64,000 nucleotides of DNA from Acidisarcina sp. (GTDB lineage: Bacteria > Acidobacteriota > Terriglobia > Terriglobales > Acidobacteriaceae): the NCBI GenBank assembly GCA_035539175.1, contig DATLIY010000007.1, positions 62,001-126,000 on the forward strand. The letters are read 5' to 3'. A program made the position numbers and the translations under genes. The notes beneath the pieces were generated by a model. The model made no database searches, had not been told where the DNA came from, and was given only the letters and a program-made list of their open reading frames with translations. Positions 29,309 to 31,995 of this stretch are shown piece after piece (the stretch's first letter is position 1; each line of letters opens with the position of its first letter).

Positions 29309-29611
29309 ATGAGCTATCTTCTAGGTTTCGTCATCGTGATTCACGTCATCGTCTCGCTCTTTTTGATTGGCGTTGTCCTGCTGCAGCAGGGCAAGAGCGC
29401 AGACCTCGCCGGTGCTTTCGGCGGTCAGGGATCTCAGACGGCCTTTGGCCCACGCGGCGCAGCGAACCTGCTCACCCGGCTGACGACCTGGTCCGCGGTC
29501 ATCTTCACCTGCACCTCCATCAGCCTGACGATTTTGATGGCGCGCGCGCACGGATCGCACTCCGTGCTGGAAGGTACCACCACCTCGGCCCCGGCAAAAT
29601 CCGGCAAATAG
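29309..29611 (+). CDS. secG: preprotein translocase subunit SecG
   Basis: The 100-residue inner-membrane protein has two hydrophobic helices (about 3-22 and 58-78). The conserved loop between them, LLQQGKSADLAGAFGGQGSQTAFG, is diagnostic for SecG, the SecYEG accessory subunit. It is preceded closely by tRNA-Leu(GAG) and followed by a terminator at 29638-29660, so it is probably a single-gene unit. Confidence 0.93.
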   Translation: MSYLLGFVIVIHVIVSLFLIGVVLLQQGKSADLAGAFGGQGSQTAFGPRGAANLLTRLTTWSAVIFTCTSISLTILMARAHGSHSVLEGTTTSAPAKSGK

Positions 29612-29660: not shown

Positions 29661-29837
29661 CTATTGCCCTGCCTTCGTTTTTTTTAAAAAAAATACCTGT
29701 TTGTGCTCAAAAATAAATGTCTGTCTGTGACTTTAGTGCTGTCCTCTCACATCTCATTTTTATTATTGTGAGCAAGCGGCTGCGTCTCTCTTGACCGCAG
29801 CTTTCAAAACCAGTCTTATTTGTCTCGAGGCCCAGGA

Positions 29838-31073
29838 ATGTCTTTTCGCTCGATCTTTGTCGCCGTGGTCATCGCCTTCGCGCTTATCCTTTCTGCGTTT
29901 TTCCTGAATCGTCAGCGCCCCAAGGCCGAGGTTCAACAGCCCACCGCCGACTTCGTTCGCGCCTCGGGAAAGTGCGCCGAGTGTCATGCGCGTACTCAGT
30001 ACTCCATCGTGCATGAATACGAGATGAGCGCCCATGCCAAGAAAGGCATCAACTGCCTGGACTGCCACCAGCCCGCGCAGGGCCAGCAGAAGCAGGATCA
30101 CCACGGATTTGTGATCAGCACGCACCTCACCGCGGGAAACTGCCGCAGTTGCCATGAGGGCATCTACCAGGAGTTCCTCCACAGCCGCCATGCCGCACCC
30201 TCGTGGGCGGCTATCTATGGCGAAAAGGGGCTTTCGCCCGAGCAGGTCAATTTCTCCGAGCAGTACCAGCCCGGCGGCACGCGCCGCCCGCCGCATCCCT
30301 TCGTCACCGCAGAGGGCAACTCCGCCATGAAGAGCGGCTGCGAGCAGTGCCACTCCGTCGGTAAGCCCAACGACGATGGAACCATCGGCACCTGCACCAA
30401 CTGTCACTCACGCCACACCACCTCGGTTGCGCTTGCACGCCGGCCCAGCACCTGCGGGCAATGCCACATGGGGCCGGATCACTCCCAGATCGAGATCTAT
30501 GACGAATCCAAGCATGGCGTTATGTTTGCTGCGCAGGAGCATCTCCTCAACCTCGATGCCGAACCCAAATCGCTGACCACCCGTGATATGTTCGTGCCGA
30601 CCTGCGCCACCTGTCACATGAGCGGCATCAATGGACTCAAGGTCACGCACGATCCTTCGGAGCGTCTTTCCTGGTATCTGGCAGATGCGGTGAGCCAGAG
30701 GCGGCCCAACTATCTCCGCGCCCAGGCCAACATGCAGCAGGTCTGCCTGCAGTGCCATACCAAGAGCGTCGTCGATCGCGTCTATGCGCAGGGCGAGCAG
30801 GTTATCAGCAACACCAATGCTCACGTGCTGGCAGCCAAGGCCATCGTCGATGGTTTGCGCAAGGACGGCATCATTACCGGTCCTCCCTTCTCCAGCCCGG
30901 TCGACTTCCTCTACTTTGATCTGTGGCACTACGATGGACGCACCTCCAAGCATGCCGCGTATATGGGAGGCGCCGACTTCGTTCAGTGGCACGGCAACTA
31001 CCCCATGCTGCAGAAGACCATCCAGTTGAAGCAGATGGACGCGGAACTGCGGAGGCAGCATGCCGGCAAGTAA
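29838..31073 (+). CDS. octaheme cytochrome c of the hydroxylamine oxidoreductase (HAO-like) family, membrane-anchored
   Basis: The protein of 411 residues has an N-terminal hydrophobic anchor (about 5-23) and then a periplasmic domain with eight CxxCH heme sites at residues 46, 73, 102, 168, 186, 206, 256 and 303. The long gap between the third and fourth sites and the C-terminal DLWHYDGRTSKHAAYMGGAD and VQWHGNY motif match the HAO/reverse-HAO family, in which heme 4 is the catalytic site. In ammonia and anammox HAOs a C-terminal Tyr cross-links to that heme; here several Tyr lie in the region, but the exact match needs alignment. Substrates could be nitrite, hydroxylamine, hydrazine or sulfite. 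The ATG at 29838 has GAGG 7 bases upstream. The next gene overlaps its end by 14 bases. Confidence 0.88.
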   Translation: MSFRSIFVAVVIAFALILSAFFLNRQRPKAEVQQPTADFVRASGKCAECHARTQYSIVHEYEMSAHAKKGINCLDCHQPAQGQQKQDHHGFVISTHLTAGNCRSCHEGIYQEFLHSRHAAPSWAAIYGEKGLSPEQVNFSEQYQPGGTRRPPHPFVTAEGNSAMKSGCEQCHSVGKPNDDGTIGTCTNCHSRHTTSVALARRPSTCGQCHMGPDHSQIEIYDESKHGVMFAAQEHLLNLDAEPKSLTTRDMFVPTCATCHMSGINGLKVTHDPSERLSWYLADAVSQRRPNYLRAQANMQQVCLQCHTKSVVDRVYAQGEQVISNTNAHVLAAKAIVDGLRKDGIITGPPFSSPVDFLYFDLWHYDGRTSKHAAYMGGADFVQWHGNYPMLQKTIQLKQMDAELRRQHAGK

Positions 31074-31995
31074 CTGGCTCAGCCGGCGCTGGCCCCTGCT
31101 GGCCAATCCGCGCATGGCCTGGATCTATGACGCGCAGTTGTGGGTGGAGCTCTTCGTCACCTCGAACCTAGCCGTGCTTGCCGCGGATATCTATCTTGCT
31201 CACTCGGTCAACCGGTTTCGCAAGCCTGCCGAGTACATTCCGCTCTACTTCTCCATCGCGGCGCCGGTGCTGCTCGCCCTCTGCATCGCGCTCAAGTGGG
31301 TGTGGCATAAAACAGCGCCGTGGCGGGATGTCGGGCATCTCATCGGCTGGGTTTCGCTCCTTATCGGATTGACCGGAGTCGTCCTGCATCTGCAGAGCCA
31401 CTTCTTTCTCGAACGTACCCTCCGCAGTCTGACCTATGCGGCCCCGTTCGTCGCTCCGCTTGCTTATTCGGGACTCGGTTTCCTGTTGCTGATGAACCGG
31501 CTCGTCGATCCCCGCAGCATCGATTGGTCCCGCTGGGTCATGTTCCTCGCGCTGGGAGGCTTCTTCGGCAACTTTGTCCTCTCGCTGACCGACCACGCCT
31601 CCAACGGCTTCTTTGCAAAGACGGAGTGGATCCCGGTCATCTCCAGCGCACTTGCCACTGGCTTTCTGCTCGTGCCGCTCATGATGCCGGTACGCCGCCG
31701 CTTTCTCGATCTTTGCATGGGAGTGATGATCCTTCAGGCGCTCGTCGGAATCCTTGGATTCTGGTTTCATCTTCAGGCGAACCTTGTTGCTCCCGGCTCC
31801 AGCATCTTCGATAAGCTGGTCAACGGAGCGCCGCCCATGGCCCCGATGCTCTTTCCTGACCTGGTCGGCCTGGCACTGATCGGAATCGTCAACCTTGCTT
31901 CCCATCTGCCTGCAGAGGAATATTCCTGCCTGTCGGTTGCCATCGACTGGTTCCAGCAGCAACGCAACCTTCCGGACTCCGCCGCAGAGATCTAA
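31060..31995 (+). CDS. eight-helix membrane protein paired with the octaheme cytochrome
   Basis: This 311-residue integral membrane protein has about eight hydrophobic segments (about 26-47, 57-80, 91-112, 123-145, 154-175, 189-207, 212-237, 254-280). Several histidines fall in or next to helices (VGHLIGW, VVLHLQSHFF, LTDHASN, FWFHLQANL), which could bind b-type hemes or quinone. There is no CxxCH or iron-sulfur motif. The start at 31060 has GGAGG 5 bases upstream and lies inside the cytochrome gene, so translation is coupled. Position and topology suggest the membrane electron-transfer partner of the cytochrome, analogous in role to NrfD, NapC or CycX but not similar in sequence that I can see. 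Function is inference. Confidence 0.72.
   Translation: MPASNWLSRRWPLLANPRMAWIYDAQLWVELFVTSNLAVLAADIYLAHSVNRFRKPAEYIPLYFSIAAPVLLALCIALKWVWHKTAPWRDVGHLIGWVSLLIGLTGVVLHLQSHFFLERTLRSLTYAAPFVAPLAYSGLGFLLLMNRLVDPRSIDWSRWVMFLALGGFFGNFVLSLTDHASNGFFAKTEWIPVISSALATGFLLVPLMMPVRRRFLDLCMGVMILQALVGILGFWFHLQANLVAPGSSIFDKLVNGAPPMAPMLFPDLVGLALIGIVNLASHLPAEEYSCLSVAIDWFQQQRNLPDSAAEI

Follow-up and report, generated by a model that had tools for sequence, protein, structure and literature searches.

Apart from those of the ammonia-oxidizing and anammox lineages, octaheme cytochromes of the HAO family have been found in 65 phyla and mostly have no known function, which also holds for most members of clades I and II of this family (PMC9213671). 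The Hao of the Campylobacterota falls inside clade II (PMC9213671). HAO-type enzymes that lack the cross-linking tyrosine are held to be reductive (PMC12758564), and in the reductive Hao of Campylobacter a tryptophan is present at the tyrosine position and a methionine is found eight residues earlier (PMC8940962). The HAOr of Kuenenia reduces nitrite to NO (PMC12485887), and in Phycisphaerae that lack NirK and NirS a role as nitrite reductases has been suggested for Hao-like octahemes (PMC11266412).

Here, a locus with an octaheme of this kind was analyzed in a stretch of DNA of 64,000 nucleotides (the window), which stems from an acidobacterial genome of 3.92 Mb that is 99.96% complete. Two genes on the forward strand, to which all coordinates given below refer, form a pair. 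The first (29838–31073) encodes an N-terminally anchored octaheme c-type cytochrome of 411 amino acids. Its reading frame starts with an ATG at position 29838 and its stop codon ends at position 31073, and an in-frame TTG is also present at position 29820. The second gene (31060–31995) encodes an eight-helix membrane protein of 311 amino acids, and the 14-base overlap of the two genes (31060–31073), to which a sequence-only reading of this DNA had drawn attention, was verified together with the polytopic nature of the second protein. The upstream neighbor is secG (29309–29611; PF03840, E 3.5e-23), which was also found 0.5–0.7 kb upstream of the pair in six related loci. In spite of being a neighbor in several relatives, it is not regarded as a component of the module. 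Downstream of the pair a large open reading frame is located on the opposite strand, and no nitrogen genes were found near the pair in the window's own neighborhood. Taken together, the results described below tip the balance slightly towards a quinol-linked module that reduces a nitrogen oxide (nitrite, NO or hydroxylamine) and contains a membrane subunit of a new kind.

The cytochrome contains exactly eight CxxCH motifs, as do all of its 91 homologues (91/91), and its model includes a hydrophobic helix at the N-terminus, which is predicted to be a membrane anchor (residues 3–25; 29844–29912). Both features had been recognized in the sequence-only reading. In the anchor region F3, F7, R27, and P28 are conserved in at least 95% of the homologue alignment. 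The cytochrome was matched by the Pfam model PF13447 (E 2.7e-23), and a sequence search of the PDB retrieved the Ignicoccus octaheme (IhOCC, 4qo5), the Nitrosomonas HAO, anammox HAO-like enzymes, and HDH. The eight CxxCH motifs aligned in order with the HAO motifs 1–8. A Foldseek search with the predicted structure yielded eleven HAO-family chains with E values from 4.8e-12 to 3.5e-8, among them the Kuenenia HAOr (6h5l) as second-best match; after a gap the octaheme nitrite reductase (ONR) followed with an E value of 0.03, and NrfA was weaker still. These matches argue that the cytochrome is, as judged from sequence and predicted fold, an HAO-family octaheme, as had been proposed, and not an ONR, OTR or NrfA. 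An identity as ONR, OTR or NrfA was ruled out by the Foldseek and PDB sequence searches, and PF02335 stayed below the cut-off. A placement in OTR or ONR had been named beforehand as the result that would speak against the earlier proposal, and the outcome favored the HAO family instead.

The fourth CxxCH motif (C168–H172; 30339–30353), which by motif order is at the position of the catalytic heme 4 of HAO, is invariant in the homologues (91/91). The same is true for Asp214-His215 (30477–30482; 91/91), which in the alignment to 1fgj correspond to Asp267-His268 of the HAO active-site pocket; the Asp-His pair was also found in the HDH rows of the alignment. In addition, the histidines H66, H88, H118, H193, H226, H271, and one or more of H364/H385 are invariant outside the CxxCH motifs. 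They would be enough for seven bis-His hemes and one open heme.

A scan of GTDB genomes revealed 197 loci with relatives of the cytochrome, of which the best 80 were analyzed. The membrane protein gene adjoined the cytochrome gene in all loci of this set that had room for it (79/79), and at the one exception the contig edge was reached. The pair was found in at least seven phyla, i.e., Acidobacteriota, Planctomycetota, Poribacteria, Zixiibacteriota, Neomarinimicrobiota, Myxococcota, and Bdellovibrionota. Singulisphaera sp. GP187 and Paludisphaera soli are cultured carriers. Next, a blind, evenly drawn sample of 297 Acidobacteriota was searched with thresholds of E <1e-170 for the cytochrome and E <1e-70 for the full membrane protein. 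The cytochrome was present in 11 of the 297 genomes and the membrane protein in the identical 11, and neither of them occurred alone at these thresholds. The pairing, for which conservation in relatives had been proposed as a check, is thus conserved in Acidobacteriota and beyond. A third operon gene that is conserved across all phyla was not found. No publications on the eight-helix partner were found in the literature searched, from which subscription papers are largely absent. The earlier notion of an undescribed system was borne out in part: the new element is the membrane partner, together with its fixed pairing, whereas the cytochrome itself is to be counted among HAO-family proteins that lack a known function and have already been surveyed (PMC9213671).

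Within about 6 kb around the pair, the Acidobacteriota relatives contained a qNOR gene at 10 loci, a ScdA/RIC-type gene at 7, and a gene for a Crp-type regulator at 9; a radical SAM gene (7 loci) and a gene for an unnamed membrane protein of 445 amino acids (8 loci) were also found near the pair. This qNOR/ScdA/Crp island has a limited spread. Most of its genes are present in a different order at a locus of the Bryobacterales (L053), in one genome (G273) a qNOR fragment begins beside the pair, and in three genomes of the sister clade (G002, G032, and G109) qNOR is located near the octaheme on the same strand. At eight loci with the qNOR island a polytopic membrane protein of 434–445 amino acids without a Pfam match is encoded between the pair and ScdA (e.g., L035:8135-9469; L029:8208-9533). 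At two Sulfotelmatobacter loci (L036 and L055) genes for a Crp-like regulator, a radical SAM protein, and a YwiC-like protein are located upstream of the pair, and a hemA-like gene is located downstream of it; the YwiC-like and the hemA-like gene were named by eye.

The host genome contains two qNOR genes away from the pair, and a search for NarG, NrfA, and NirK did not reveal any of these three. This gene set fits a reduction of nitrite to NO followed by qNOR, or of nitrite to hydroxylamine followed by Hcp, as in the reverse-HURM scheme (PMC3701875). The Hcp (hydroxylamine reductase) gene of the host is located next to an open reading frame that by eye looks like the ScdA/RIC type, and the two would form a nitrosative-stress pair (L218:6447-9086, G000:C8). 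Among the Acidobacteriota, qNOR was not enriched in carriers of the pair (3/11 versus 18/69), and neither was Hcp (2/11 versus 40/286). NarG was found in 1 of 11 carriers, without a phylum-wide association. Therefore, the link to nitrogen is based on how the genes are arranged in part of the family and on the family affiliation itself, which together make a role of the module in nitrogen-oxide turnover likely.

The lack of a phylum-wide association with NarG, qNOR, and Hcp would also agree with a substrate outside of the nitrogen cycle, e.g., a sulfur oxyanion or another small molecule, which would be reached by the same path from quinol to the octaheme. HAO clades I and II, which have no proven function, are present in organisms for which nitrogen cycling is not known, and a sulfur role has been proposed for one member of clade I (PMC9213671). 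Nevertheless, the pocket has retained the HAO-type Asp-His pair, several Acidobacteriota show a physical linkage of the gene pair with qNOR, ScdA, and Crp genes, and the sister clade is linked to qNOR, so that a substrate of this kind is regarded as unlikely.

The AlphaFold2 model of the membrane protein exhibits eight long helices with a mean pLDDT of 90.8. Searches against Pfam, NCBIfam, and the PDB sequences did not reveal any match above the cut-off, neither with the single sequence nor with a profile of 33 members, in accordance with the earlier view that the partner is unlike NrfH, NapC, and CycX. Neither a CxxCH motif nor a match to PF03264 was found in the protein, and the NapC/NrfH and cytochrome b models of Pfam did not match any of the 33 homologues even at an E value of 1. 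Weak Pfam matches of single members (Rhomboid, HlyIII, and others) were put down to chance. Foldseek did not yield a match to the model at an E value of 0.001. With VIA-align the best match was 3dby (Z 16.2), and 3d19 was also retrieved (Z 15.1). These are soluble Bacillus proteins with a layout of tandem four-helix bundles, and the similarity of the model to them is taken as one of layout, not of kinship. NrfD- or cytochrome b-type folds were missing from the VIA-align list, which excludes nothing.

A comparison of the N-terminal and the C-terminal half of the membrane protein with hhalign resulted in a probability of 98.5% (E 1.7e-15), while reversed controls stayed below 1%. From the sequence, the protein is thus best described as a fused duplication of a four-helix unit with two invariant histidines per unit. 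Repeat 1, as delimited by the homologue alignment and hhalign, comprises residues 25–148 (31132–31503) with His48 (31201–31203) and His110 (31387–31389), and repeat 2, as delimited by the homologue alignment, comprises residues 154–280 (31519–31899) with His179 (31594–31596) and His237 (31768–31770). The sequence-only reading had noted intramembrane histidines, and it turned out that these four are invariant across 33 diverse homologues. Each half contains the motif H-x2-N-x-F...E-(W/Y)-x-P closing helix 1 and G-x2-G-x3-H closing helix 3, followed by A-P-x3-P. On average, the N-terminus and loops 2, 4, and 6 are richer in positively charged residues than loops 1, 3, 5, and 7, which places the histidine ends at the periplasmic side, on which the cytochrome has to be located. 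The simplest reading of this pattern is that each half may bind one bis-His heme b (His48/His110 and His179/His237, respectively).

Profile searches revealed relatives of the membrane protein that consist of a single four-helix unit of about 150–170 amino acids, as well as other tandem forms, and in both cases the two histidines per unit are kept. The single-unit proteins (e.g., L132:5570-6052, L215:5748-6197, and L216:5691-6206) resemble an ancestral form of one half of the eight-helix protein, and some of them have no obvious redox neighbors. One distant tandem relative is encoded in an operon with a GMC oxidoreductase (PF00732/PF05199) and a gluconate 2-dehydrogenase subunit 3 (PF13618). 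This relative belongs to the EHYRGSY family, and its operon is conserved (L214:5306-8732, L133:6123-7818, and L212); a thiamine-diphosphate-type enzyme, recognized by eye, and a mandelate racemase-like gene are also found in it. Three-subunit dehydrogenases of the GMC type use a multiheme c subunit to pass their electrons on to the membrane. No multiheme c subunit was visible in the GMC dehydrogenase operon, and therefore the tandem membrane protein may stand in for it. It is tempting to speculate, albeit tentatively and with more doubt than confidence, that the eight-helix protein is a member of a so far undescribed superfamily, whose membrane redox units with four helices and two histidines, single or fused, link periplasmic enzymes such as reductive octaheme Hao and GMC dehydrogenases to the quinone pool, and that bacteria without canonical nitrite reductases thereby reduce nitrite or NO.

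The next-nearest octahemes share the Met-Trp signature described below, and the eight-helix protein was not found near any of them. Of those with wide flanks, seven have cytochrome b and Rieske genes as neighbors, two have NapC/NrfH-type genes, and the rest have neither. Sister octahemes with cytochrome b and Rieske genes, often together with a NapA-like molybdoenzyme, were observed at L199, L207–L210, L196, and L134, and would form an uncharacterized octaheme bc-type complex of Acidobacteriota and Planctomycetota. In a phylogenetic tree a branch set the octahemes with the new partner apart in 92% of the bootstrap trees. Its support was modest (89/51), and two divergent rows that form a pair (L012 and L013) were placed on a long branch. 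The cytochrome clustered apart from anammox HDH and HAO-like sequences. The picture that emerges is that of a single catalytic core, for which three membrane partners can be exchanged.

The exchange with known quinol-side partners, i.e., cytochrome b plus Rieske and NapC/NrfH, argues for a quinol-linked module, and the distant relative beside a GMC dehydrogenase and its small subunit, as a second redox context, argues for a redox role of the membrane protein. Both results weaken the competing idea that a soluble cytochrome supplies the electrons and that the eight-helix protein is an anchor, a proton path, an assembly factor, or a small-molecule channel. This idea would account for the missing sequence match to any known quinol oxidoreductase and for the single four-helix relatives without obvious redox neighbors, and pairs of histidines are by themselves no proof of heme. 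However, the invariance of these pairs and the Gly-x2-Gly-x3-His spacing in both repeats are not in line with it, and an additional anchor would be superfluous for a cytochrome that already has its own. Therefore, a role other than electron transfer is considered rather improbable.

The direction of catalysis is indicated by the C-terminus of the cytochrome. The motif GGADFVQWHG, which the sequence-only reading had assigned to the HAO family, is indeed present (residues 377–386), but it is not the motif of the oxidative HAO. In an alignment with 18 anammox HDH and HAO-like sequences the site of the cross-linking tyrosine of HAO/HDH is occupied by Met376-x7-Trp384 (MGGADFVQW; 30963–30989), with Gln383-Trp384 in place of the tyrosine. 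The respective sequences are NDATYSDG in anammox HDH, DxTHW in other planctomycete HAO-like proteins, and ADFVQWHG in the homologues of the cytochrome. Met376 was found in 90, Gln383 in 89, and Trp384 in 90 of the 91 homologues; Met376/Trp384 fit 90 of the 91 rows, and the last row has a gap there. The cross-linking tyrosine is absent in all 91 homologues. Residue 280, opposite Tyr334 of HAO, is mostly Tyr, Trp or Phe. The agreement with the Campylobacter-type signature is based on its published description (PMC8940962). The missing tyrosine and the presence of Met-x7-Trp make an oxidation of hydroxylamine or hydrazine unlikely, and an identity as oxidative HAO or HDH was rejected on the basis of the missing tyrosine. 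Of the two directions that had been considered for HAO-type enzymes, it is the reductive one that was retained, and the cytochrome is, from its sequence, most likely reductive. An oxidation of hydroxylamine, hydrazine or NO with reduction of quinone via the membrane protein, which would match the HAO-like fold and Asp-His pair, is very improbable given the lack of the tyrosine in all homologues (0/91), a loss that marks reductive forms (PMC12758564), and the position in the tree away from anammox HDH and HAO-like sequences.

According to the preferred reading, a quinol-linked nitrogen-oxide reductase, both genes would encode one redox module, which could be respiratory or detoxifying. The eight-helix protein would take the place of a NapC/NrfH or cytochrome b/Rieske partner and would transfer electrons from the quinol pool to the cytochrome, probably via one bis-His heme b per four-helix unit near the periplasmic face. 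The cytochrome, held by its N-terminal helix, would be a reductive periplasmic enzyme of the HAO type, in which the electrons would pass along the bis-His hemes to the open heme 4 with its Asp-His pocket. There, a nitrogen oxide (nitrite, NO or hydroxylamine) would be reduced, most likely nitrite to NO or hydroxylamine. The role of quinol as donor, heme b, the direction of electron flow, and the substrate are inferred. The fixed membrane partner gives one large clade of the HAO family a testable electron path, and for acidobacteria of the soil, planctomycetes, and Poribacteria the module is a candidate nitrogen-oxide reductase. Should the partner be a quinol oxidoreductase, it would represent a class without a Pfam family.

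Compared with described systems, the pair resembles the reverse Hao of Campylobacter and Nautilia with CycX or cM552 (reverse-HURM), which is also an HAO-family octaheme with Met-x7-Trp and without the cross-linking tyrosine, has a separate quinol-side membrane partner, and has been proposed to reduce nitrite or hydroxylamine (PMC8940962, PMC3701875). However, its partner is a NapC/NrfH-type tetraheme cytochrome c, while an eight-helix protein without CxxCH motifs is found here, and the cytochrome of the window has its own N-terminal anchor. The Kuenenia HAOr (Kustc0457/0458) is likewise an HAO-like octaheme without the tyrosine link, but its partner is the redox protein Kustc0457, and it has no integral membrane partner of the eight-helix kind. 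The Ignicoccus hospitalis octaheme (4qo5) is the best PDB match of the cytochrome in sequence and fold; it lacks the active-site histidine and has Asp-Val where the cytochrome has Asp-His. The Kuenenia Rieske/cytochrome b complex with an HAO-like octaheme (Kuste4569-4574) also couples an octaheme to a membrane quinol unit (PMC12954380), an arrangement that was also seen in the sister octaheme clade, but its cytochrome b/Rieske partner has no sequence kinship to the eight-helix protein. Lastly, the Nitrosomonas HAO and the anammox HDH share the fold, the eight hemes, and the Asp-His pair with the cytochrome of the window, but in contrast to it they carry the cross-linking tyrosine and work oxidatively.
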